54,249 nucleotides of DNA from a virus. The translations under genes were made by a program, and so were the position numbers. The stretch lies in the IMG/VR virus record IMGVR_UViG_3300049846_001989, positions 1 to 54,249 of that record. One strand, written 5' to 3'. Shown here piece after piece: positions 3 to 54,249 of the stretch. Every line of letters starts with the position of its first letter. Position 1 is the first letter of the stretch. The notes below the pieces were generated by a model that was not told the DNA's origin, searched no databases, and saw only the letters and a program-made list of their open reading frames with translations.

Positions 3-287
3 ACACAGATCGCCGAGTACTTGGAAGATTGCCCACGATTCATCCGCGGTATTTACAACAAGCGCGGTGATTCGAAGGTAGACGTTTATGACGTGACCAA
101 CCGGGTCATTCACCAGTGCGTGCCACAACGGGTACAGTACTCACTTCCTGAAGAAACTCGTACGCGACTTGACCAGTTGATCACGACCAATGTCCAGAAA
201 CGCACATATCAATACCAGCGCCAGACGATCGCTCCAGTATACGGCGGCGCCGGGTACAATAATTTCGATGACATCGGGAGATACTGA
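3..287 (+). CDS. C-terminal part of an unknown phage protein (cut by window edge)
   Basis: The reading frame is open to the left edge, so the real start is probably outside the window; an internal TTG at 21 is the first possible start. The visible 94 or so residues are hydrophilic, with many Arg, Gln and Tyr, and end in an Asp-Asp-Ile-Gly-Arg-Tyr tail. I do not recognise a family. Its TGA overlaps the ATG of the next gene (TGATG), so the two are probably translationally coupled. Since the next gene is E2-like, this protein could belong to the same pathway, but that is inference from position only. Confidence 0.6.
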   Translation, partial: TQIAEYLEDCPRFIRGIYNKRGDSKVDVYDVTNRVIHQCVPQRVQYSLPEETRTRLDQLITTNVQKRTYQYQRQTIAPVYGGAGYNNFDDIGRY

Positions 288-1711
288 TGACTACGACTTA
301 TGCCCTTCCCAATGATATAACTACCAAGATTGCCAGTCTGAAACGCGACATTTCACACTATGTCGAAGCTATTGCCAACGAGGAAAAAAGTAAAACACAA
401 TATATAGAAAGCCGTGACAAGGTGGTCCGACACTTCAGTGCATGGAAAGCTTTCTTCAAAGACAACCCACTTCCATCCGAACTACAAGAATATGCCTGGA
501 AAGATTCACGTTTTGAGTCAGCGATTCGTGAGTATTCCCAAGCTATACAAGGAAAAGAAGACGAGATCAAAGGTCTTCAAAGTCAGATCAAGAAATACGA
601 AGCTGCAATAGCCAAGTTCGAAGACGACCTGGCCAAGACCCCAATCAAATCCTACACCAAAGAACAGCTTAAAGCGGCTATGCCCGAGTTTGTCGCTGAT
701 GTAGGAATGGTTGACGGCAAGATCAAAATCACTACCAAGCCGATTCTGGCAACAATCAACCGCGTTAATCCACGCTTCCAGGTTTTCGAGAACAAGATCC
801 CGATCAAACCGATGAATGTTTACATTCATGGAAGCGCAGGTCTGGTTAAATTCCACGCAATCGGCGAAAACGGCTACGACAGCGGGTTCCTGACCAATTC
901 CCCACACCCCCACATCATGGGTGATAATAAGGCATGTCTCGGCGATTTCGCCGACCCGTTAATACAAGCCTGGAGAACTAATGACCTGGTCATGTATTTA
1001 GAAATTATCCATCTGTTCCTGAGCCAGGTTAACGCCGACGGTGACCGGGCAGGCGAGAGCTGGCCGCGCATGTTTTTTGATCGTGAGCAACTGGCTGATG
1101 AAGAAAACACTTTCGTTATCGACTACCGCACGAATACAGCGAAGGTCTGTGTCGAAGAAGTGGAAACCCCGGCCTCCTTCCAGATGGAACTTCAAGGCGT
1201 CGTCTGGAACTGCGCCGGTCCACGAAACATACCGACAGATAACGACCTTATCTCGGCGCCCTCTGGCAAGATCTTCGTACGCCGACTCGACGGCTCACTG
1301 TACGCAGCCAGTGACTACTTCACAGCCCCGATCAAGGAGCTCGTTCCGAAATTCACTGGTACGATCAAACCACGCCCGTGGAAACGCGAGTGGATGGCGT
1401 TCTGGAAGACTACGTACGACACTGTGTGGAAAATCCAGTATGAGAAGGCCTGCGCAGCGGCCACACCAGTGGCTGAAGCTGAACCGCTCGTAGCTGAAAC
1501 GCCCAAACCCAAGCGGGTACGTCGGAAGAAGCCAGTAGAAGCCCCGGCCGAGCCAGCCACAGCCGTAGTTACAGCCCCGACGGTTGTTATGGAAGCAGAC
1601 CACGTAGCCGAAGCCCCTAGACAACGTCCGCGCCCGGCAGTAGATCCCACTATGGCTGAACTGGACCGTATTATGGCCGAAGCCCCTGTAGGAGCAGAGA
1701 TAGATGGCTAA
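287..1711 (+). CDS. E2-like (ubiquitin-conjugating-fold) protein with coiled-coil N-terminus
   Basis: The protein has 474 aa. Residues about 10-120 are charged and heptad-like (coiled coil). The middle contains a strand-rich region leading to His-Pro-His at 207-209 and a Cys at 217 followed by Leu-Gly-Asp. In eukaryotic E2 enzymes the HPN motif precedes the catalytic Cys by exactly this spacing (H at 1, Cys at 11), so I read Cys217 as the candidate thioester cysteine. A basic and Pro/Ala/Glu-rich tail (about 400-474) looks disordered. Prokaryotic E2-like proteins are known to occur beside E1/ThiF, JAB peptidase and ubiquitin-like genes; here only a ubiquitin-like gene (6773-6982) is visible, and any E1 or JAB would have to lie left of the window. 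Conjugating activity is inference. Confidence 0.6.
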   Translation: MTTTYALPNDITTKIASLKRDISHYVEAIANEEKSKTQYIESRDKVVRHFSAWKAFFKDNPLPSELQEYAWKDSRFESAIREYSQAIQGKEDEIKGLQSQIKKYEAAIAKFEDDLAKTPIKSYTKEQLKAAMPEFVADVGMVDGKIKITTKPILATINRVNPRFQVFENKIPIKPMNVYIHGSAGLVKFHAIGENGYDSGFLTNSPHPHIMGDNKACLGDFADPLIQAWRTNDLVMYLEIIHLFLSQVNADGDRAGESWPRMFFDREQLADEENTFVIDYRTNTAKVCVEEVETPASFQMELQGVVWNCAGPRNIPTDNDLISAPSGKIFVRRLDGSLYAASDYFTAPIKELVPKFTGTIKPRPWKREWMAFWKTTYDTVWKIQYEKACAAATPVAEAEPLVAETPKPKRVRRKKPVEAPAEPATAVVTAPTVVMEADHVAEAPRQRPRPAVDPTMAELDRIMAEAPVGAEIDG

Positions 1712-2354: not shown

Positions 2355-2584
2355 CCGTAATCCAGCTCATAGAAGCCTTGGTAACCCTGCCACCCGATAC
2401 CCCCGTCGCTATGGTCATGCACGACGATCCTGCCATGGAAATGTACGCCGTAGGCGAGGTCAAGCTTGGCGAAGAATTTGGCTTCGAAAGTGATAATCAC
2501 TGGATGACTGATGAATCGGCCGTAGTACTGATTTCTGAGGACATAGTACTGGTAGACCCCGAGGAGTTCGAGGAGGTCAAGTGA
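2348..2584 (+). CDS. Small acidic phage protein, unknown
   Basis: This 78-aa protein is strongly acidic, especially its Glu/Asp/Val C-terminus. The N-terminus, with an L-I-E-A-L-x-x-L-P-x-D pattern, resembles a class of small phage proteins of unknown role. It overlaps the previous gene by 7 bases, and its TGA overlaps the GTG start of the first member of the small paralogue family. Confidence 0.65.
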   Translation: MLTVIQLIEALVTLPPDTPVAMVMHDDPAMEMYAVGEVKLGEEFGFESDNHWMTDESAVVLISEDIVLVDPEEFEEVK

Positions 2585-2781
2585 TTACGTATGAAGATAT
2601 GCGTAGCGTATTAACTGATGAAGAATGGACAGCTTTACATAAAGCGTCCTCTAGAACTTACCTTCGAAACTTTACAGCCAAAAGTTATAAACAATGGCTG
2701 TATAAGTTCCATAACTGGGCCAGTACCCCACAAGGATATGATTACAGGTCCAGTGTCTATTCCCGTTTTGCGGTGCTTTAA
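2581..2781 (+). CDS. Small paralogue family, copy 1
   Basis: This 66-aa protein starts at a GTG preceded by GAGGAGG and overlapping the upstream TGA. It shows the family pattern: an N-terminal T-Y-x-D-M-x-x-V-L-T-x-E-E-W-x-A-L helix, a variable basic middle, and a C-terminal N-W-x-x-x-P-Q-G-x-x-Y block ending near an Arg/Phe pair. The family has eight members in this window (starts at 2581, 2783, 2992, 3201, 3418, inside 8950, 9359 and 9598). I know no named family; no catalytic residue or zinc site is visible. Small size and aromatic content suggest a binding role. Confidence 0.75.
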   Translation: MITYEDMRSVLTDEEWTALHKASSRTYLRNFTAKSYKQWLYKFHNWASTPQGYDYRSSVYSRFAVL

Positions 2782-2782
2782 T

Positions 2783-2995
2783 ATGCTCACATTCGACGAC
2801 ATGCGCGATGTACTGACTGACAAAGATTTTGCAAAACTTGTGTTTTTAACGCGCAATTCCCCAGCAGCCAGAAAAACCATGGCTCCAAACTATGCCGACC
2901 TTCTTCAAGCTGTTTGGATAGCACTGCCTTACGAGCAACGTACAAACTCGGCCTTTTGGGGCAAGGTTTACGACCGGTTAAAGATACTCCAATGA
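2783..2995 (+). CDS. Small paralogue family, copy 2
   Basis: This 70-aa member starts one base after the previous stop. The N-terminal F-D-D-M-R-D-V-L-T block is well kept, but the C-terminal P-Q-G turn is replaced by a longer segment rich in Glu, Arg and Asn before F-W-x-x-V-Y-D-R-L. This shows that the Trp and Arg-Leu end are more conserved than the turn. Its TGA overlaps the next ATG (ATGA). Function unknown. Confidence 0.72.
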   Translation: MLTFDDMRDVLTDKDFAKLVFLTRNSPAARKTMAPNYADLLQAVWIALPYEQRTNSAFWGKVYDRLKILQ

Positions 2996-3201
2996 GCACG
3001 TTTAACGACATGCGCGATGTTTTGACTGCCAAGAAGTGGGCGGCTCTGAACCGCTTAGCAAAAAACAGCATAATTTCCAGAACGCGTGTCTCTGAAAACT
3101 ATTGGCGTTATATCCTAGGCATGTGCACTTGGGAAGTCACTCCAGAAGGGTGGCATTATTGGAACAGAGTCCACGACCGTCTACGTAGAGAACTTGAATA
3201 A
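2992..3201 (+). CDS. Small paralogue family, copy 3
   Basis: This 69-aa member has an N-terminal F-N-D-M-R-D-V-L-T block almost identical to that of copy 2, then a basic middle, T-W-E-V-T-P-E-G-W-H-Y-W and V-H-D-R-L near the end. It overlaps both neighbours by 1-4 bases, so copies 1 to 4 form one coupled translational unit. Function unknown. Confidence 0.75.
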   Translation: MSTFNDMRDVLTAKKWAALNRLAKNSIISRTRVSENYWRYILGMCTWEVTPEGWHYWNRVHDRLRRELE

Positions 3202-3431
3202 TGATTACATTCAACGACATGCACGACGTTTTGACCGATGAAGAGTGGGAGGCCCTGAACCTCATCGCTTCTACCAAGCCCGCATTAAAAAGAGAAGAAA
3301 GCAACTCCTACGCAGAATGGTTGTTTGAAAACTTTACCTGGAGCCGCGCACCACAAGGCATAGAGTTTTGGCGAGCTATACATGGACGACTGGAAGTGCT
3401 GGATGACGGGCCAAACAATGCTGCGTTTTGA
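3201..3431 (+). CDS. Small paralogue family, copy 4
   Basis: This 76-aa member starts at an ATG sharing one base with the previous TAA. It has I-T-F-N-D-M-H-D-V-L-T-D-E-E-W, then F-T-W-S-R-A-P-Q-G-I-E-F-W and H-G-R-L, followed by a short extra tail. It is the copy closest to the family consensus. It overlaps copy 5 by 14 bases. Confidence 0.75.
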   Translation: MITFNDMHDVLTDEEWEALNLIASTKPALKREESNSYAEWLFENFTWSRAPQGIEFWRAIHGRLEVLDDGPNNAAF

Positions 3432-3621
3432 AGACCTCAAAGACATCCTGACCGAAGAAGAATACGCGGCAGCAGAAAAAGCCCGCATACCCTCTAAAAA
3501 CCAGTCGTTTCACAACTATGCCAATTTAATGCTCCACACGTTTGCCTGGAACAAAACGCCAGGTTTTTCACCAGACCACTGGAAAAACAAACACACCAAT
3601 CTTTTTTTACTTATACGATAG
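3418..3621 (+). CDS. Small paralogue family, copy 5 (divergent)
   Basis: This 67-aa member keeps R-F-E-D-L-K-D-I-L-T-E-E-E-Y and F-A-W-N-K-T-P-G, but the turn is altered (P-G-F-S-P) and the C-terminus is hydrophobic instead of ending in Arg-Leu. I chose ATG 3418 because translation from there aligns with the family start; an in-frame ATG at 3382 would add residues inside copy 4. It may be a decaying or re-specialised copy. Confidence 0.68.
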   Translation: MLRFEDLKDILTEEEYAAAEKARIPSKNQSFHNYANLMLHTFAWNKTPGFSPDHWKNKHTNLFLLIR

Positions 3622-3631
3622 GAGAAACAAC

Positions 3632-3967
3632 ATGAAATTCAATGACTTCGTAATGAAACTTGCCAAAAATTGTGGCCTCGAAGACTATCCTGAAGATTTG
3701 GCGTTCCTCGAAAGAGCACTTGATGCAATCCGACGTTCGACTGATCAGGATTTCTACGTAAATATCGTAGACCCCAATTCGGACCGCAACCTTCGAGACC
3801 ATGAAATCATCATACGCCCTGAATGGGACAGCTATAACGACACCGTCGAAATCGTAGTTCCTTTCGATAATGAAGCCACCAAGCCGAAGAAATCCCCAAC
3901 AATTCCTGACGAAGACCTTGACGACCGCGTCTTCAATGCCAGACTGGGGGAGCATATTGCCGGTTAG
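3632..3967 (+). CDS. Unknown acidic protein
   Basis: This 111-aa protein starts at ATG 3632, seven bases after a strong AGGAG, in preference to upstream in-frame codons that lie inside copy 5. It has a helical N-terminus and then a strand-rich part. The last 35 residues are rich in Asp, Glu, Pro and Lys. No family recognised. It ends about 45 bases before the primase-helicase, the largest gap in this part of the array. Confidence 0.75.
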   Translation: MKFNDFVMKLAKNCGLEDYPEDLAFLERALDAIRRSTDQDFYVNIVDPNSDRNLRDHEIIIRPEWDSYNDTVEIVVPFDNEATKPKKSPTIPDEDLDDRVFNARLGEHIAG

Positions 3968-4011
3968 CCCGTAACGGGATATCCTGACATACCCACACAG
4001 TCTGGTGCTTT

Positions 4012-6354
4012 ATGAAGATCAATTTCCTGAGTGCGCAGTTCCCAATAACAAAGACTTACAGCCAGACCAGGTCAGGTAACATAAACAAGACGCCCTATCC
4101 CTTTGTTTATGAAGTAAATTCTTTCGAATACCAGGTCCCTACGCTCGAGGCCCTATTCCCCCTGATACAACAGCACGCGGGGCAAGGGCACTGTCTCCTG
4201 AAAGGCGAGCTGGCCCGCCCCCTCGTCTCCGAGTCCCGGGCTGGCAGCACTGACCCCAAGCAGAAGACCGAGTGGGTGTGCCTGGACCTGGACGGGATTG
4301 GCGGGTACTCGACCGTGGACCAGTTCCTCCAGGACGTGGGTTGTGGTGAGACGGACTACATCCTTCAGTGGTCTGCCAGCCAGGGCGTGGGCGGCGCCCC
4401 CGAACTGCGCTGCCACATCTTCATGATGCTCGACGCGCCCAGGACCCCCGAGTTCCTGAAGCGCTGGCTGATGACCCTGAATCTGACCTGCTCACGGCTC
4501 AAGGAGCAGCTCCGACTCACACGTACCAACTGCAGCTTACGCTGGGGGCTCGACATCACGACCTGCCAGAACGACAAGCTGCTATACATCGCACCACCGC
4601 TGTTCGAGAACATGGAAGACCCCCTGGCCGGACAGGCCCGAATCTCATTCCACAAAGGCAAGCGCCGGCGCCTAGCTATTGGCACCCAGGTCCTCGAACG
4701 TGAGGCCCTGAGGAACCTGTCAGACCAACGGATCAACGAGCTGCGTCTCGGCAGCAGCATGCCCAAGCGCAAGACCACGAAGTACAAGGTACAGGGCTCT
4801 GTGGAATACATGCAGAACCCGGACACGGCCACCGTGACGGACATCAAGATCGAACGTGGCTTTGTCTACCTGAACCTCAACGGCGGGGACTCCTGGGCGT
4901 ATTACCACCCGGAGAACAACCCGTCGTTTATATACAACTTCAAGGGCGAGCCAGTCTATAAAACTGACGAGCTCTTGCCCGAATACTGGGCCGAGATTGC
5001 CCGACGTGCCCAGGACTACCAGCCAGACACCTCTGGAACGATCTACCTGGCCTTCAGGGAGTTTCGGACCGGTAACTACTATAACGGCACCTTCGATGGC
5101 GAGACAAGCCGCCTGAACCTGGCCATGGCCAAGAACGAGACACAACTCAAGCACTTCCTCAAGCAGCACGGGCAGCCGGTAGGCGACTATGTACCTGACT
5201 GGGACCTGGTGTTCGACCCCCACAGCGAGATCACTCTCGATGTGATGAACCGCACCGTGAACACGTACGTACCAAGCGTGTACATGGAGGACCGCTCGCC
5301 CCCCAAGGTGACGACTATCCCTCCCGTGTGCAACAAGATCATCAGGCACGTACTGGGCGACGACGAGGAGTGTGTACTGCGCTTCCTCAACTGGCTGGCC
5401 TGTGTGGTGCAGTTCAAGGACCGGACAGGCACCGCCTGGGTCCTGCACGGCACGCAGGGGACGGGCAAAGGCCTGCTGTTCCACCATATCATTGCCCCCA
5501 TCCTCGGAGAGCACAACACCTCGGCCAAGCGGATGGAGGAGCTGGAGAGTGAGTTCACAGGCTTCGTAGAGAACAAGTTCGTCACGGCTATTGACGAGAT
5601 CGAGGTGGGCAGCTCGCTGTACCACGCCAAGATCACTGCCAAGCTCAAGAACCTGATCGTGGAACCGAGTATCTCGATCCGCAAGATGTACACTCCGGCA
5701 TATATGTCCCGGAACTACAACAACATGCTCTTCATGAGTAACCAGTCCGAGCCGCTACAGGTGTCGCCGGACGACCGCCGCTTCAACGTGGCTCCATACC
5801 AGTTCAACAAGCTCCAGATCACGACCACCGAGGTGGACTCGATCGAGAAAGAACTCAAGCAGATGTATGCGTACCTGATGCACTACCCGGCGAACCGCGA
5901 CATGGCTCGCACGCCGCTGATCAACCAGGCACGTGAGACATTGATAGACATCAGCCGGTCAGCCGTGGACGTCGTAAGTGACGCCCTGCTGGCAGGCAAT
6001 TTCGGATTTTTCTGGGATCAGCTCCCGTCACAAAAACCGCCGGAGAGTGGGGCGATAACCAACCCGAACCACTTCAAGTATATGCGGTATCGAGAGCTGC
6101 TCCTGGGCATACTGGAACGTACAGAACCCTGTGCCCTGTCACGGGATGACCTGTACACCATGTATGACTGGTGCGATGGCAAGGTACCATCAAGCCCCAA
6201 CAAGTTCACGGCCCTGCTCAAGCATCACCGTATTCACTTGACCCCTGTCTGGGTGGGCAAGCGGACAACTCGAGGGATTGAAGTACAGTGGGACTTCTCA
6301 GATAAAGAGTGGGTAGCGGCCTTGAAAGAAGAAGTCAAAAACAACACAGTCTGA
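4012..6354 (+). CDS. Primase-polymerase / SF3 helicase
   Basis: The protein has 780 aa and two enzymatic halves. The N-terminal half fits an archaeo-eukaryotic primase-polymerase: D92-x-D94, His135 in a C-H-I-F strand and Asp182 in L-D-I match the three catalytic positions of that fold. The C-terminal half is a superfamily 3 helicase of the NrS-1 polymerase-like/DUF5906 type: Walker A G-T-Q-G-T-G-K-G near 481-488, Walker B A-I-D-E near 527-530, and a sensor Asn in F-M-S-N-Q near 577. It probably makes primers and unwinds DNA at the phage fork, with the family A polymerase (9822-11690) extending. It is GC-richer than the small genes to its left. Confidence 0.9.
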   Translation: MKINFLSAQFPITKTYSQTRSGNINKTPYPFVYEVNSFEYQVPTLEALFPLIQQHAGQGHCLLKGELARPLVSESRAGSTDPKQKTEWVCLDLDGIGGYSTVDQFLQDVGCGETDYILQWSASQGVGGAPELRCHIFMMLDAPRTPEFLKRWLMTLNLTCSRLKEQLRLTRTNCSLRWGLDITTCQNDKLLYIAPPLFENMEDPLAGQARISFHKGKRRRLAIGTQVLEREALRNLSDQRINELRLGSSMPKRKTTKYKVQGSVEYMQNPDTATVTDIKIERGFVYLNLNGGDSWAYYHPENNPSFIYNFKGEPVYKTDELLPEYWAEIARRAQDYQPDTSGTIYLAFREFRTGNYYNGTFDGETSRLNLAMAKNETQLKHFLKQHGQPVGDYVPDWDLVFDPHSEITLDVMNRTVNTYVPSVYMEDRSPPKVTTIPPVCNKIIRHVLGDDEECVLRFLNWLACVVQFKDRTGTAWVLHGTQGTGKGLLFHHIIAPILGEHNTSAKRMEELESEFTGFVENKFVTAIDEIEVGSSLYHAKITAKLKNLIVEPSISIRKMYTPAYMSRNYNNMLFMSNQSEPLQVSPDDRRFNVAPYQFNKLQITTTEVDSIEKELKQMYAYLMHYPANRDMARTPLINQARETLIDISRSAVDVVSDALLAGNFGFFWDQLPSQKPPESGAITNPNHFKYMRYRELLLGILERTEPCALSRDDLYTMYDWCDGKVPSSPNKFTALLKHHRIHLTPVWVGKRTTRGIEVQWDFSDKEWVAALKEEVKNNTV

Positions 6355-6772: not shown

Positions 6773-6982
6773 ATGATCAATGTACGTGTAGCTCGTGTAC
6801 CTGGCACTGTCCAGGAAGTAGCCCTGAACGATGGCGCCTCCGTAGGTGACGCACTCGGCCAACTGGGCATGCGCGTTGAGTCAGGCGAAGCCCTGAAAGT
6901 CAACGGCGCAGACGCCACTACCTCTACTACCCTGAGCGACGGTGACCGGGTTATCCTGGTTAAAGGCGCCAAGGGGAACTGA
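6773..6982 (+). CDS. Ubiquitin-like / MoaD-ThiS-like beta-grasp protein
   Basis: This 69-aa protein starts at ATG 6773, seven bases after AGGAG; an ATG at 6758 sits inside the ribosome site region and is rejected. The pattern is that of a beta-grasp fold: a first strand (I-N-V-R-V-A), a tight turn, a second strand (V-Q-E-V-A-L), a helix beginning A-S-V-G-D-A-L, a strand with V-N-G, then D-G-D-R-V-I-L-V and a C-terminal G-A-K-G-N. MoaD, ThiS and ubiquitin-like proteins share this order and are activated at a C-terminal Gly. Here one Asn follows the Gly, so trimming might be needed. With the E2-like gene at 287 it suggests a conjugation pathway (inference). Confidence 0.68.
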   Translation: MINVRVARVPGTVQEVALNDGASVGDALGQLGMRVESGEALKVNGADATTSTTLSDGDRVILVKGAKGN

Positions 6983-8949: not shown

Positions 8950-9381
8950 GTGACTACTACCCGCCCAACCGTTGACTTCGGCGTACTGACTAATGAAGCG
9001 CGTGCTGCGTGGGCGGCTAATACTTTTCAAACGGCGCAAAACCGCGGGTTTGTGGAGCGGTTTTTAAGAGACAACATAAACGGTATACCAGACCAGGAGA
9101 ACGAGAACGTGGATTCAGAAAAACCAATAACTTACATCACCATGTTGCAGCTCATGACTCCTGAGGAACTGGAAGCGTTCGACATCGCATGGGAATCTGC
9201 CGGTGGGTATAGAAGGGGCTCAAGCTTACCCCCACTCCCAGAACTCAAAGCCAGAACACCACGCAGTTTTATAGATCGAACCCTGTATTGGAGAAAAACC
9301 CCACAAGGACACGATTATTGGGACGCTCTCAGCAATAAATTAAACAAAAGGTGGCAAGATGGCCTCCGTCACATACAATAA
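8950..9381 (+). CDS. Capsid N-arm mimic fused to small paralogue family (copy 6)
   Basis: This 143-aa protein starts at a GTG. Residues about 9-65 align without gaps to residues 5-61 of the major capsid protein encoded at 44993-46102: by hand I count about 18 identities in 57 positions, including F-x-x-L-T-x-E, A-W, F-V-x-x-F-L, N and S-E-K. The remaining part is a member of the small paralogue family: I-T-Y-I-T-M-x-x-L-M-T-P-E-E-L near residue 60 and T-P-Q-G-H-D-Y-W near 118-125. The fusion is direct in one frame, so it is not an assembly of two ORFs. Possible roles include binding to capsid partners, occupying the site of a host sensor of capsid protein, or regulating assembly. None is shown by the sequence alone. 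Confidence 0.75.
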   Translation: MTTTRPTVDFGVLTNEARAAWAANTFQTAQNRGFVERFLRDNINGIPDQENENVDSEKPITYITMLQLMTPEELEAFDIAWESAGGYRRGSSLPPLPELKARTPRSFIDRTLYWRKTPQGHDYWDALSNKLNKRWQDGLRHIQ

Positions 9382-9604
9382 TATCCACAAATTCTTGCGT
9401 AAAAGTGCCATGCAAGAGCTGGAGCTTGCGCTTATAGACTCCCGCACCGTGTTCACAGAATACACCGTCGCAGATCTCGTACGCCCGTGCGCCTCCGACT
9501 GGATCCACGATCTGTTCAACTGGGAGAGTTCACCCCAAGGGCCCTATTATTGGTTCGATACGTATCAATCCTTGCTCGAAAGAGAGGAGAAAGAATCGTG
9601 GTAA
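9359..9604 (+). CDS. Small paralogue family, copy 7
   Basis: This 81-aa member overlaps the previous gene by 23 bases. Its N-terminal block is diverged (V-T-Y-N-N-I-H-K-F-L), but the C-terminal block F-N-W-E-S-S-P-Q-G-P-Y-Y-W is intact and followed by a Glu/Arg tail. It shares the segment C-A-S-x-W with copy 8, so copies 7 and 8 are probably the most recent duplication of this cluster. Confidence 0.73.
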   Translation: MASVTYNNIHKFLRKSAMQELELALIDSRTVFTEYTVADLVRPCASDWIHDLFNWESSPQGPYYWFDTYQSLLEREEKESW

Positions 9605-9825
9605 CCTACGCCGATATGCACACATACCTGACTCATGAAGAAATGGAAGCGCTGGAAACGGCGCTGAGCAGTCCTGATACAAACGTTCTTGATAAACCTC
9701 TGCCAGAATTTAAAAGAAACTGTGCATCATCGTGGTTATTCTGGTTTTTTAACTGGGGGTCTTCTCCACAAGGACACAACTACTGGAGTAGCGTACACAA
9801 GCGCTTGGAACGGGAAAAGGTATGA
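9598..9825 (+). CDS. Small paralogue family, copy 8
   Basis: This 75-aa member starts at GTG 9598 after a GAGGAG site. It has V-T-Y-A-D-M-H-T-Y-L-T-H-E-E-M-E-A-L, then F-N-W-G-S-S-P-Q-G-H-N-Y-W-S-S-V-H and R-L-E-R. It overlaps the DNA polymerase start by 4 bases (ATGA), so it is translated together with the replication genes. Confidence 0.75.
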   Translation: MVTYADMHTYLTHEEMEALETALSSPDTNVLDKPLPEFKRNCASSWLFWFFNWGSSPQGHNYWSSVHKRLEREKV

Positions 9826-11690
9826 CAATCGAAATCCGTAACCGCGAATACCAGATCGTCACTCTCGATTTCGAGACGTACTACGACACTGCCAAGGTGT
9901 ATTCACTCAAGAGCCCGTTCCTGAACCTGTCAGAGTACGTCCGGCACGAGCTGTTCAAGGCGCATGGTGTGGGGATCAAGATCGAGCAGGGCAAGACGCG
10001 CTGGTATACTGGCGCGAAGGCTGAAAAGGAAATCCAGAAAATCGACTGGGACAACACAGCACTTCTGTGCCACAACACCTATTTCGACGGCTTCATCCTG
10101 CACGAACACTACGGCGTGCACCCGGGCTTCTACATGGATACCATGTGCATGGCCCTGGCCGCCCACGGAGCTAACTCCAAGGTAGGCCTGGACTTCCTGG
10201 CCCGGCTCCACGGACTGAGCGGCAAGACCAAGGCGCACGCGCTGGTCAACACACTCGGCAAGCGCGACCTGTCGAAGGAAGAACTCAAGGCGCTGGGCGA
10301 GTACTGCGCCGACGATTGTGACGACACGTACGCGCTGTTCCATAAACTGTACACTTACGTGCCAGACGACGAGCTGCGCCTGATCGACCTGACGCTGCGC
10401 ATGTTCTGCGATCCCGTTATCTACCTTGACGAAGCCAGATGCCGGGCAGAGTATGACCGCGAAGTGCGGGAGAAACAGGAGGCGATCGAGTTCGTCAAGG
10501 AACTGTGTACTGTCACCGAGCTGCAGAGCAATGAGAAATTCGCTGATCTGCTCCGGGCGCAAGGCGTGGAACCGCCGATGAAGATCAGCCTGACTACACA
10601 GAAACCGACGTACGCCTTCGCCAAGACAGATTTCGATTTCGTGGACCTCATGGAAAACGGCACTCCAGTGGTCCAAGCGCTGTGTAATGCCCGGGTCCGA
10701 AATAAAACAACAACGAACGAGACCCGGGCATTGCGCTTCCTCGAAGCAGGCAAATGTGGCGCGCCTATTCCTGTGTACCTGAAATACTGCGGCGCCCACA
10801 CGTTCAGGTGGAGTGGCGGCAACAAGCTCAACCTCCAGAACCTGATGCGCGGTGGCGAGTTGCGCCGTTCACTACTAGCCCCGCCCGGTTATCGCCTGGT
10901 TGTAGCAGACAGTGCCCAGATTGAAGCCCGTACACTCGCGTGGCTGTCCGGCGAGCACGCCATTATCGAAGCGTTCGCTAACAAGCGCGACGTTTACAAG
11001 ATGATGGCCTCGGCGATTTACAACGTCCCGGAAGACCAGGTTGACAAGGAGCAGCGCTTCGTAGGTAAGGTCTGCGTTCTCGGCCTCGGGTACGGGATGG
11101 GGGGCAGCAAGCTGAACGACACACTGGCCAAAGGTGCCATGGGGCCGAAAGTCGTACTACCTACCGAAGAAACCACACGTATCGTCGCTGCGTACCGGGC
11201 TGCCAATAAGGCGATCGTCGGTATGTGGCGCCGCGCTGAAGAAATTCTGATTGACATGATTCTCGGCAATACCGGCTCGTACGGCCCGCTTACATGGGGC
11301 AAGGGCTTCATCAAGATGCCCAACGGGCTCTTCATGCAGTACGCCAACCTGAGCGGAGAAATCCGTTACGACCGTAGCGGTCGTGCGCGGTTGAGTGACG
11401 CGTGGTACGAAGGTAAACGCGGTGTCAAGACCTACATTTACGGTGGGTCTGCCACAGAAAACTGGGTCCAGAGCCTAGCACGGTGTATCGTAGCTGGTCA
11501 GATGTTGACGATCAGTGAGCGCTACCGTGTAGTCACCATGTCACACGACGAAATCGTATGCCTGGCCAAAGAGGACGAAGCCGATGAGTGCTTGCGCTTC
11601 ATGATCGAGACCATGTCAACTGCGCCACCTTGGGCCGAAGGCCTACCACTCGCGGCAGAAGGAGGCCACGATGTCTGTTACTCGAAGTGA
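9822..11690 (+). CDS. Family A DNA polymerase with 3'-5' exonuclease
   Basis: The 622-aa protein has both catalytic modules. The proofreading exonuclease shows D16-F-E18, H-N-T-Y-F-D near 84-89 and Y-C-A-D-D-C-D-D near 159-166. The polymerase part has motif A (A-D-S-A-Q-I-E-A-R near 361-369), motif B (K-V-C-V-L-G-L-G-Y-G-M near 414-424) and motif C (S-H-D-E near 572-575). It is compact, like T7-type phage enzymes, and has no 5' nuclease. It is the replicative polymerase of this phage, presumably working with the primase-helicase at 4012-6354. Confidence 0.94.
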   Translation: MTIEIRNREYQIVTLDFETYYDTAKVYSLKSPFLNLSEYVRHELFKAHGVGIKIEQGKTRWYTGAKAEKEIQKIDWDNTALLCHNTYFDGFILHEHYGVHPGFYMDTMCMALAAHGANSKVGLDFLARLHGLSGKTKAHALVNTLGKRDLSKEELKALGEYCADDCDDTYALFHKLYTYVPDDELRLIDLTLRMFCDPVIYLDEARCRAEYDREVREKQEAIEFVKELCTVTELQSNEKFADLLRAQGVEPPMKISLTTQKPTYAFAKTDFDFVDLMENGTPVVQALCNARVRNKTTTNETRALRFLEAGKCGAPIPVYLKYCGAHTFRWSGGNKLNLQNLMRGGELRRSLLAPPGYRLVVADSAQIEARTLAWLSGEHAIIEAFANKRDVYKMMASAIYNVPEDQVDKEQRFVGKVCVLGLGYGMGGSKLNDTLAKGAMGPKVVLPTEETTRIVAAYRAANKAIVGMWRRAEEILIDMILGNTGSYGPLTWGKGFIKMPNGLFMQYANLSGEIRYDRSGRARLSDAWYEGKRGVKTYIYGGSATENWVQSLARCIVAGQMLTISERYRVVTMSHDEIVCLAKEDEADECLRFMIETMSTAPPWAEGLPLAAEGGHDVCYSK

Positions 11691-50799: not shown

Positions 50800-53433
50800 T
50801 CACGAGGTCATGTGGGTCAGGTTGCCACCCGACACCGTGTTGAGTATCTTATCACGCCACGATGGTACCTTGGGCGGGTCCGGAAGTCTAGGAGGCGCCG
50901 CATTTGTTATCAGCCTGATCGCCCAGGCCAGGGCATCCACGATGTCGTCGTGCCCGCCACCAGGGAACTGCAGCATCTCCTGTAGGAGTTCAGTCTTCCA
51001 CGGCGGGTCCATCGGGAACGATACTTTCCCCTGCTGCATCCGGCCCTGCAGGGGCCTGGCCCGGGCCACTTTATCCGTCAGCGGTTTCATCACTTCGATG
51101 GTAGGAAACACCTTCCGCTCATCCATGCGCTTGCGCAATAGCGGCTCAATTGACCGCCAGATCTGGCCGTCTTCGACCCCGACTACGTAGCGTCCACCGG
51201 ATATCCGCATGTAGCGCTCGGCTACCGTCACGATGGAATCCACGATCTCGAAACTGTCGCCCCTGAAGCGTACGAGATCCGCCACGTATGCGTGGTCATA
51301 GTCGTCGTGCGCGATCGTCGCCCCTACCGTGAAGTCGTTCTGCTGCTTCAAGCCAATCGCGAAGTCCCAGGCGGTGTAGTAATTCACGTGCTCGCCGAGA
51401 GGCGGCAAGTGCTCGAACCTGAAGTGCTCCTTCCTGAAGTACAGGCCTTCGTCGGGGACAGGCGCCTGCTGGTAGAGGGCAGACCATATCCGCGGCTGCA
51501 GGTTGGCCCGTATCTTGTGCAGGGCGTTTGTGGAGTAGCGCTCCTCGTGCAGCGCCTGGTCTGGACCGCGCAACAGGGTGTAGTGTTCCGGGGCGTCCTT
51601 GATCGGCTCTGCCGTCCGGATGATCTCATGCCTGGGCGACTCCTCGTCGCGGTACTCATACGTAGCACTGAGGGCCGGGTACAGCACCACCTCGAACTGG
51701 TCAGCCATCGGATCCAGGCGCATGCGCTGCTGCAGCCTGCCGGCGAGGTCGTCGTAGTTCCACCACGTCTCGATGAGCAGTATCCCGCCGCCAGGGGCGA
51801 CACGCGTCGAGGCTGTGGACTGGTACCACTCGTCGATCAGCTGGCGGCGGTCTGCGCTGTCCGCCTCCTCCATATTCTTAATTGGGTCGTCTATAATTAA
51901 GATATGGCAGCCCTTGCCAGTTAATCCGCCCCCCACGCCGGCAGCTACGAATCCGCCGCCCGCGGTCGTGGCCCAGGTCTCTGTGGCCTGTGACTCGGGG
52001 TCCAGCTGGGTGTCCGGAAAAATCGAGTGGTAGTAGGGATCGCGCAGCAAGCCCCGAACCTTGCGCGAGAAAATCATGGGAAGGTCCAGGTTGTACCCCG
52101 CATTGATTATCCCGTGCGTCGGATTGTGCCCCAGGTGCCAGGCGGGTAACCGGATCGAGGCCAGCTCGCTGTTATGCGTCGGGATCAGTGCCTCGCCAAC
52201 CAGGTACAGGCCGTCGGAGGAGACAACCTCGACGCACCGGGCGGAAAATGGCTCGACCCTGCGCACTGCGCGGACGGTCCGGTACTTGGGCCGGCCAGAC
52301 CGCGTCGGTATCTTGCGCTCCAGTGCGAGGCCCCCACCACTGCGGTCATAGGGGACCCAGCCGACCACCCAGTACCCGCCACCTCGGACCGTCGCACCAG
52401 ACCAGCGGATCTTTCTCTCGCGGCGGTCAGCCGGGCGGTACTGGATCGTCACCCGGTAGCCGAGGCTTCGGGCCAGGCGCCGGATATCGTAGGCCAGGCC
52501 GAGGACGTTCGTGCACACCCGGACCCTCCCGTCGCGCCTGCACAGTGACCCGTCTGTATCAACGATGCCGCCGAGCAGCTCGCGCCTGTGCTGTTCAGGC
52601 AGTGAGAAGTAGACTTCTGGTATGTGCTTACAGCCGAGTACGCCGAGTGCCCGCAGCTTGGCACGTATGTGCAAGAGGCACACATACTTGCAGCCCGTAT
52701 TCGCGTGTATTCGCACGGCACCGAATTCCTGGTAGGAAGGAAGACGTGCCAGGATCTTGTCCAGATCCTCGGGTGCGCCGCAAATCACCCCGGAGTCAGT
52801 CATCCCGTCACCGAGCCACACGCCCAGGGTGTAGGGGTCGACCGGGACCTTGGTATGCCGGCCGTGTAACGGGAAAGTCGGGGGGAGCAGCAGCTCGCCC
52901 CGGGTGCTCTTGGCCAGGATGTCGGGGAGCTCGCGGGTTTCGTAGGTGGCCCACTGCGCCCGGCGGCGATCGTAGACAGTCCACTCGTGGTTCTCGTGAC
53001 ACCTGATCTTCTCCCCGTCGGAGAACTCCACCTCACAGTCGCCCATGACCGGGTCGGCCACTTCCTTGATCACTACCGGTCGGCCACTCGGGTGGAAGAC
53101 CATGTCCCCGGGGAGCAGCTCGCCGTGGGTGATCCACCCTCGGGTCTGGGTGAAGACCGGGGTTTCGTCGTAGATGGCTTTTCCGTGGCGGGGAGGGACC
53201 AACAACATCAGCCGGGGGGACTTCTTCTCGGTCACCTCTCTGGAGAAGCGCTCGAGTCGAGCAGCCATGTCGTTGTGTACCCAACCCGCCTCGTACTCAG
53301 GGAGCGTGGACTTGGTAAAGTGGATTAGCCTGCGGCGGGACAGGATCCTCTTGGCCAGCTCTTGTTTTGCCAGGTCCCCCGGTGGGAGGGGTTGTTCCTG
53401 GTTCTCGTTATTGTCCGTTGGTGGTTGAGTCAT
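50800..53433 (-). CDS. Terminase large subunit with intein
   Basis: The 877-aa precursor contains the TerL packaging ATPase and nuclease, interrupted by a 336-aa intein. TerL features: P-P-R-H-G-K (80-85) joined after splicing to S-E (422-423) gives the Walker A; D-D near 515 is Walker B; the nuclease has D690 in A-W-D-F, and H-D-D near 828-830. Without splicing, the ATPase P-loop would be broken. TerL motors pump DNA into the procapsid and cut it. The first residue of the intein is Ala, not Cys or Ser. Confidence 0.94.
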   Translation of the reverse strand: MTQPPTDNNENQEQPLPPGDLAKQELAKRILSRRRLIHFTKSTLPEYEAGWVHNDMAARLERFSREVTEKKSPRLMLLVPPRHGKAIYDETPVFTQTRGWITHGELLPGDMVFHPSGRPVVIKEVADPVMGDCEVEFSDGEKIRCHENHEWTVYDRRRAQWATYETRELPDILAKSTRGELLLPPTFPLHGRHTKVPVDPYTLGVWLGDGMTDSGVICGAPEDLDKILARLPSYQEFGAVRIHANTGCKYVCLLHIRAKLRALGVLGCKHIPEVYFSLPEQHRRELLGGIVDTDGSLCRRDGRVRVCTNVLGLAYDIRRLARSLGYRVTIQYRPADRRERKIRWSGATVRGGGYWVVGWVPYDRSGGGLALERKIPTRSGRPKYRTVRAVRRVEPFSARCVEVVSSDGLYLVGEALIPTHNSELASIRLPAWHLGHNPTHGIINAGYNLDLPMIFSRKVRGLLRDPYYHSIFPDTQLDPESQATETWATTAGGGFVAAGVGGGLTGKGCHILIIDDPIKNMEEADSADRRQLIDEWYQSTASTRVAPGGGILLIETWWNYDDLAGRLQQRMRLDPMADQFEVVLYPALSATYEYRDEESPRHEIIRTAEPIKDAPEHYTLLRGPDQALHEERYSTNALHKIRANLQPRIWSALYQQAPVPDEGLYFRKEHFRFEHLPPLGEHVNYYTAWDFAIGLKQQNDFTVGATIAHDDYDHAYVADLVRFRGDSFEIVDSIVTVAERYMRISGGRYVVGVEDGQIWRSIEPLLRKRMDERKVFPTIEVMKPLTDKVARARPLQGRMQQGKVSFPMDPPWKTELLQEMLQFPGGGHDDIVDALAWAIRLITNAAPPRLPDPPKVPSWRDKILNTVSGGNLTHMTS
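52171..53178 (-). mobile_element. Class 3-type intein with LAGLIDADG homing endonuclease
   Basis: The 336-aa insertion (precursor residues 86-421) interrupts the TerL P-loop. It shows W151 (in block B, N-H-E-W), C400 (in block F, A-R-C-V-E-V) and T419 (in block G, P-T-H-N), the Trp-Cys-Thr set of class 3 inteins. It has no N-terminal nucleophile: its first residue is Ala. It ends in His-Asn, followed by Ser. L-G-V-W-L-G-D-G (203-210) and L-G-G-I-V-D-T-D-G (287-295) are the two DOD endonuclease motifs. Class 3 inteins are thought to have a phage origin. Splicing is predicted from these residues, not observed. Confidence 0.88.
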
Positions 53434-54076: not shown

Positions 54077-54105
54077 ATAGTACCCAAAACGGTGGAGGGT
54101 GTCAA
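54077..54105 (-). promoter_or_regulatory. Strong sigma70-type late promoter before terS
   Basis: On the minus strand TTGACA (54100-54105), exactly 17 bases, and TACTAT (54077-54082) form a near-perfect sigma70 promoter. Initiation near 54070 would give a leader of about 27 bases. It is the only strong promoter upstream of the packaging genes in the window and is flanked by the repeat array described below. Confidence 0.82.
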
Positions 54106-54123
54106 CACATTAAAAAAAGTCCT

Positions 54124-54231
54124 TTAAAATCAAACACCTTACACTTTGAAGAAATTCCTTACACTTTTTGTAAGGGCCTAACCCTTTGATTTTAATCAGG
54201 AAAACACGATTCCTTACGATCCTTACACTTT
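54124..54231 (-). promoter_or_regulatory. Repeat array upstream of the late promoter (operator or origin-like)
   Basis: This AT-rich, gene-free region has three exact copies of AAAGTGTAAGG (minus strand) at 54137-54147, 54157-54167 and 54221-54231, plus a half-copy (GTAAGG on the minus strand) at 54212-54217. The first two are spaced 20 bases, near two helix turns. One copy forms a hairpin with GTAAGG (54157-54175). An outer perfect 11-base inverted repeat (54124-54134 and 54185-54195) encloses it. This arrangement suggests protein binding for late-gene control, replication or packaging. Nothing else is seen up to the window end. Confidence 0.7.
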
Positions 54232-54249
54232 TTTTGGAAACTTTTATTT

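Follow-up and report, generated by a model that had tools for sequence, protein, structure and literature searches.

A phage-encoded E2-like protein from a replication gene region and its probable role in reversible ubiquitin-like protein conjugation

The open reading frame at positions 287 to 1,711 of an IMG/VR virus record very likely encodes the E2 enzyme of a phage-encoded, reversible ubiquitin-like protein (UBL) conjugation pathway situated in the replication region; its activity is inferred, and there are no biochemical data. The stretch analyzed here, which we call the window, is the whole 54,249-base record, which is linear, and there are no data left of base 1. A first-pass annotation, made without database searches, had proposed that this phage E2 tags proteins, possibly virion or host proteins. 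The general proposal is supported, with all the checks that could be computed coming out in its favor, and the substrate and the thioester intermediate remain inferences. Virion proteins as targets found no support: the neighbors are replication genes, which serve as context only. The features of the window are collected in Table 1.

Table 1. Features of the window that bear on the putative conjugation module
Feature	Position	Strand	Basis
C-terminal half of JAB protease, 5'-open ORF cut by left end of record	3..287	+	HMM (window excluded) 2.8e-21; pairwise identity
E2-like (UBC) enzyme, 474 aa, putative	287..1711	+	ORF with ATG; family HMM excluding window 1.7e-24; model
Long N-terminal helix, residues about 82-117, probable coiled coil	530..634	+	model residues 2-36; weak coiled-coil matches
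UBC-like core, residues 118-266	638..1084	+	model residues 37-185 align to E2 enzymes
His-Pro-His motif, residues 207-209	905..913	+	translation; alignment of relatives
Candidate catalytic Cys217	935..937	+	translation; alignment of relatives
Pro/Ala-rich tail, residues 401-474, one basic patch KPKRVRRKKP	1487..1708	+	composition
Primase-helicase (DUF5906), neighboring replication gene, context only	4012..6354	+	profile matches; relative
Ubiquitin-like protein, 69 aa, tail GAKGN, alternative ATG 6758	6773..6982	+	Pfam ThiS; family HMM
Family A DNA polymerase, neighboring replication gene, context only	9822..11690	+	relative follows module in 23 loci

The HPH-x7-C of the window protein has the spacing of the HPN-x7-C of eukaryotic E2 enzymes, and the ORF and active-site residues reported by the first-pass annotation were as stated there. 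The Asn of the HPN motif is absent. It is not needed for membership of the E2/UBC superfamily, as the UBE2W family carries HPH (PMC4630614); human UBE2W reads HPH-VYSNGHI-C, with the same seven-residue gap to Cys (PMC9527308, PMC4630614). There is nevertheless no significant overall sequence similarity between UBE2W, which acts on N-termini with ubiquitin, and the window protein (E 0.63). By itself the motif lacks significance: the six-frame ORFs contain one bare HP[HN]-x7-C, where shuffles would give 0.19, or 0.06 if a hydrophobic residue must follow the Cys. Its significance rests instead on homology: an HMM built only from loci retrieved through their E1 genes, with the window left out, detects the ORF with E=1.7e-24.

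That homology is hidden from standard comparisons. Sequence queries, whether full-length or limited to the core, retrieved no relatives from phages, plasmids or viral contigs, and the database matches of the full-length protein are mostly to coiled coils. None of the curated E2 profiles of Pfam, PHROG, NCBIfam or PADLOC matches the window protein, and only one of 33 relatives matches the curated UQ_con profile (E 0.0077). The best PDB profile matches are to UBE2W, on HPHVYSNGHICL, with E only 0.6-0.7. Profile comparison with single bacterial E2s, which has little power, gave no match. An HMM search found no E1 domain in the E2 ORF.

Relatives were reached by two routes. A degenerate DNA version of the motif, scanned over viral contigs, yielded ten distinct real homologs among many chance matches; they adjoin JAB and UBL genes and, in several cases, an E1 gene within the fetched stretch. 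Pfam recognized ThiF in the E1s of these loci and Prok-JAB in the JABs, mostly below the cut-off. Judging conservation on this set was rejected as circular, and a Gly at +5 that had seemed conserved was an artifact of the search pattern. The E1-based set was used instead. Here an E1 profile was scanned over the viral contigs, with the E1 alignment used, entry only via its glycine-rich loop and no use made of the E2 motif. The scan gave matches at 79 loci, and UBL, E2, JAB and E1 occur together in 59 of them, mostly in the order UBL-E2-JAB-E1 or UBL-E1-JAB-E2, with E1 and E2 as separate genes.

The catalytic residues are conserved in most of this set. Among the 61 distinct E2s of the E1-retrieved loci, HP[H/N/Y]...C is kept in 52, of which 33 have HP[HN]-x7-C and 19 have HP...C at another spacing; most of the remaining nine keep C-[hydrophobic]-G. 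Relatives with a changed His motif are few. A residual bias is that the E2s in these loci were recognized by an HMM that includes the motif, but it did not force the result, because nine exceptions surfaced. The outcome that would have refuted the first-pass reading, homologs without conserved Cys and His, did not arise: HPH and Cys persist in the relatives retrieved via E1, whose neighboring genes encode E1, JAB and UBL. All 67 E1s share the glycine loop and, numbered by alignment column, Lys73, Asp112 and Cys175, of which Cys175 is inferred to be the candidate thioester Cys. Arg never occurs at column 61, the apparent equivalent of MoeB Arg73, where the residue is Asn (50/67), Cys, Thr, Ser or Ala. 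The JAMM residues of the JABs, a Glu and the H-x-H-x7-S-x2-D metal site, are intact in all but one of 66.

An AlphaFold2 model of residues 82-292, made with a 33-sequence alignment, has a mean pLDDT of 80.5; an earlier model from 11 sequences was too weak (pLDDT 53.7). The predicted order of elements is a long helix, a short helix, a beta meander, the loop with HPH and Cys, and three more helices. Foldseek alone gave no significant match, its top hit being the E2 Pex4p (E 0.16). When Foldseek's first 1000 chains were realigned with VIA-align, E2 enzymes occupied all 50 of the best rows shown (Z 7.4-8.1, rmsd 3.1-3.9 Å, about 115 residues, model residues 37-185), a Z near 8 being modest by that tool's own warning. 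From the E2-only structural rows and the active-site match, a UBC fold is the clear reading of the prediction, and the fold check suggested by the first-pass annotation came out in its favor. Of the flanking regions which it described, a coiled coil ahead of the domain is probable, the long N-terminal helix being predicted with high pLDDT. A disordered basic tail behind the domain fared less well: the C-terminal 74 residues contain 11 K+R vs 12 D+E, so the tail is not basic overall and has only the single basic patch. In a separate observation, the E2 proteins of four other loci (L068:2730-4061, L060, L015 and L112:3238-5916) bear C-terminal Cys-rich (CxxC) clusters, of which the window E2 has none; these clusters might be zinc-binding, ligase-like domains.

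Two putative partners are encoded in the window. The first-pass annotation had advised looking leftward for JAB and E1 genes; a JAB is present, cut by the left edge. The fragment starts just after the metal site, so that the metal and active site lie off the record, and besides its profile match it gave one pairwise match at 34% identity (2e-11) and another, to the L039 JAB, at 49% identity across 70 residues (2e-18). The claim of a ubiquitin-like protein at position 6,773 held, with matches to Pfam ThiS (2.4e-6) and to a family HMM that excluded the window (1e-26), and with 53% identity to the UBL of locus L053. It is a single ubiquitin-like domain without a C-terminal Gly-Gly, and its tail is common to the nearest group of relatives. 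In most family members the tail is K-G followed by zero to three residues; most UBLs outside the nearest group have KGN or KGG and then up to three further residues at the end, and some end GG.

The HMM from the E1-retrieved loci found no E1 in the whole record, including its right-hand end, which is non-coding with short repeats. Because the gene order in the nearest relatives is E1-JAB-E2, an E1 is expected just beyond the left end of the contig, and we infer that it probably lies there. The right end (positions 54,100-54,249) contains a repeated CCTTACACTTT and an inverted GTAAGG; possibly the contig broke at the CCTTACACTTT repeat, which would explain the missing E1.

The module is surrounded by replication genes. 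A family A DNA polymerase gene is near the module in 23 loci, and other loci have genes for DnaB-like proteins, AAA_24 ATPases, PriCT primases, SNF2 helicases or DUF5906 primases nearby. The contig carrying loci L008 and L053 shares with the window the DNA polymerase (37%) and the primase (32%). This proximity suggests early expression and no more, and even that is an inference. Among cultured phages, E1 homologs labeled "thiamine biosynthesis protein" occur in Xanthomonas phages PhiXhv-12/15/16 and in Flavobacterium phages, and Erwinia phage Ep032 has an E1 homolog without annotation. In PhiXhv-12, DNA ligase and topoisomerase genes flank an E1, a candidate UBL ending GG and an 892-aa protein that contains an E2 domain (2.3e-9); the stretch read showed no JAB. 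In Flavobacterium phage Fpv3 a JAB precedes the E1, and the UBL and E2 candidates were picked by eye only. Phages KPP25 and phiA008, with a related primase, have no E1, which argues that the module is accessory.

Outside phages, an E2 of the type found at locus L010 was detected in one cultured bacterium, Allochromatium humboldtianum, where it presumably resides in a prophage. The family was not found in the other genomes sampled from that bacterial class, giving 1/274 overall. On this single occurrence in a sample of one class, and with none of the curated profiles tried covering it, the E2 family looks largely confined to phages. The Allochromatium genome (L027 / G001) also encodes two Prok-E2_A domain proteins, with reading frames 769 and 857 aa long, and a single cell therefore contains conjugation systems of both the phage type and the host type.

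The phage module, judged from the relatives that carry the full set, has the four components and the predicted chemistry of the prokaryotic UBL/E1/E2/JAB operons grouped as classes 6a-6e (Iyer, Burroughs and Aravind 2006; PMC1779556). Its genes stand alone as in class 6d, whose E2 lacks the upstream His and has a conserved downstream His, whereas the phage E2s conserve the upstream His. Classes 6a-6c have an E1-E2 fusion, and the phage module has none. The phage set further differs from the Iyer operons in its location in the replication region of phages and in the failure of curated Prok-E2 profiles to match its E2s. BilABCD (PMC11354881) likewise comprises a UBL, an E2, a JAB protease and an E1 as four genes, but BilA has two UBL domains where the window UBL has one, and Bil protects bacteria whereas the set described here belongs to phages. 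CBASS Cap2/Cap3 (PMC10097602, PMC11153139) are alike in E1, E2 and JAB activities and in reversible conjugation, and the phage E1s match PADLOC E1-E2 models weakly (5e-11). Cap2, however, is an E1-E2 fusion that conjugates a nucleotidyltransferase without a UBL, in contrast to the separate E1 and E2 and the UBL of the phage module. The Lambda TAPI/TAPK tail-assembly proteins (PMC1779556) are also a phage-encoded UBL and JAB peptidase; no E1 or E2 accompanies them, and their neighbors are tail genes rather than replication genes. On inference from sequence alone, the phage module would work like the Iyer operons and Bil, yet it fits none of their defined classes on the features tested, because it has no E1-E2 fusion, its E2 has the upstream His, and its UBL is single. 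We found no description of a full phage-coded UBL conjugation system in the literature searched, coverage of which was incomplete (all bioRxiv preprints and most subscription papers were outside it), and priority is not claimed.

We present a hypothetical mechanism in which the order of reactions, the thioester, the trimming site and the product bond are all inferred. The JAB protease would trim the UBL precursor past the conserved Lys-Gly, removing the Asn of ...GAKGN. The E1, which is of the ThiF type and should lie immediately to the left of the record, would adenylate the UBL C-terminus and hand the UBL to E2 C217 as a thioester, and the E2 would move it onto an amine of a phage or host protein. 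The coiled coil and C-terminal region of the E2 may serve in assembly or substrate choice, and the JAB would reverse the modification. Among eukaryotic E2s, HPH is characteristic of the UBE2W family, whose members modify N-terminal amino groups (PMC9527308, PMC4630614). Since His also occupies the position of the HPN Asn in a bacterial Prok-E2_B protein, HPH alone is no proof of N-terminal tagging; by analogy, N-terminal or other non-lysine conjugation by the window E2 is an attractive guess that remains possible.

Several points stand against the E2 pathway reading. The E1 is absent from the record and the JAB active site lies off it; Foldseek alone is not significant, a Z of about 8 is modest, and no curated E2 profile matches; and the E2 has HPH and not HPN, the E1s lack the MoeB Arg, and the UBL does not end in GG.

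The alternative that survives best, and is possible, is counter-defense, in which the module would disturb host UBL antiphage systems such as BilABCD or CBASS Cap2, for example by JAB cleavage of host conjugates or by mis-tagging of defense proteins by E1 and E2. Its biochemistry overlaps with that of the preferred explanation, and its purpose differs. In its favor, such systems serve hosts as defenses against phages (PMC10097602, PMC11153139, PMC11354881); KPP25 and phiA008 show the module to be accessory; and two Prok-E2_A proteins are encoded in the Allochromatium genome alongside the L010-type E2. Against it, cleavage needs less than the full E1-E2-UBL set, and the module lies among replication genes in several phage lineages and not among known anti-defense genes.

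A sulfur-carrier pathway is very unlikely. Here the UBL would be a carrier whose thiocarboxylate serves to modify bases or cofactors, the E1 a ThiF, the JAB a carrier-maturing protease and the E2-like protein an accessory. The ThiS and ThiF matches and the thiamine biosynthesis labels of phage E1s speak for it, but ThiS and MoaD need no E2, whereas an E2 with HPH and Cys is present in most loci, there are no thiamine or molybdopterin genes among the recurrent neighbors, and the window UBL lacks a C-terminal GG. Equally improbable is a non-catalytic RWD-like scaffold that retains the UBC fold for partner binding only. Class 6e of Iyer et al. includes inactive E2-like domains (PMC1779556) and the His motif is altered in a few relatives, but an inactive domain would lose the His-Pro-His and Cys that the window protein and nearly all its relatives keep. 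A chance motif in an unrelated coiled-coil protein, to which the non-significance of the bare motif (0.19 expected) and the mostly coiled-coil matches of the full protein would point, is all but excluded by the homology, the conserved catalytic residues, the E1, JAB and UBL neighbors and the predicted fold.

Bacterial UBL conjugation is known mainly as an antiphage weapon, and a complete phage-coded set turns that picture round. With the conjugation reading preferred, the recurrence of the module in many phages beside DNA replication genes suggests a reversible form of protein tagging that phages operate for themselves. Related modules in cultured lytic phages (Xanthomonas PhiXhv-12 and, with a less clear E2 candidate, Flavobacterium FpV), hidden under the label "thiamine biosynthesis protein", allow direct experiments on the identity of the proteins tagged during infection and on the bond that is formed. 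Being small and divergent, the E1 and E2 enzymes also bear on the origin of the eukaryotic ubiquitin system.

A bolder joint reading, which we consider unlikely, is that several phage lineages reversibly tag their own or host replication proteins, that the HPH E2, as in UBE2W, favors N-termini or another non-lysine nucleophile, and that in at least one phage (L007) the tag feeds a protein-unfolding machine. Any link to replication proteins is inferred. The L007 locus (2572-5393 of a 178 kb viral contig) has the order UBL-E2-JAB-E1, followed by a 101-aa coiled-coil ORF and then a Clp-type AAA unfoldase (Pfam AAA_2 1.5e-64, Clp_N), which could conceivably be a reader of tagged proteins. A simple pattern check saw no Clp-type unfoldase beside the module in other loci.

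Two further features of the window concern other genes. About seven small neighboring ORFs on the plus strand (2,581-3,621 and 8,950-9,825), five of them in tandem, resemble paralogs, with a MITFNDMHDVLTDEEWEAL... pattern and a C-terminal ...PQGHNYWSSVHKRLE. On the minus strand (50,800-53,433), a large terminase ORF of 877 aa apparently contains an intein: AIYDETPVF... comes after the Walker A region PPRHGK, and ...LIPTHN closes the insert ahead of SELASIRL.
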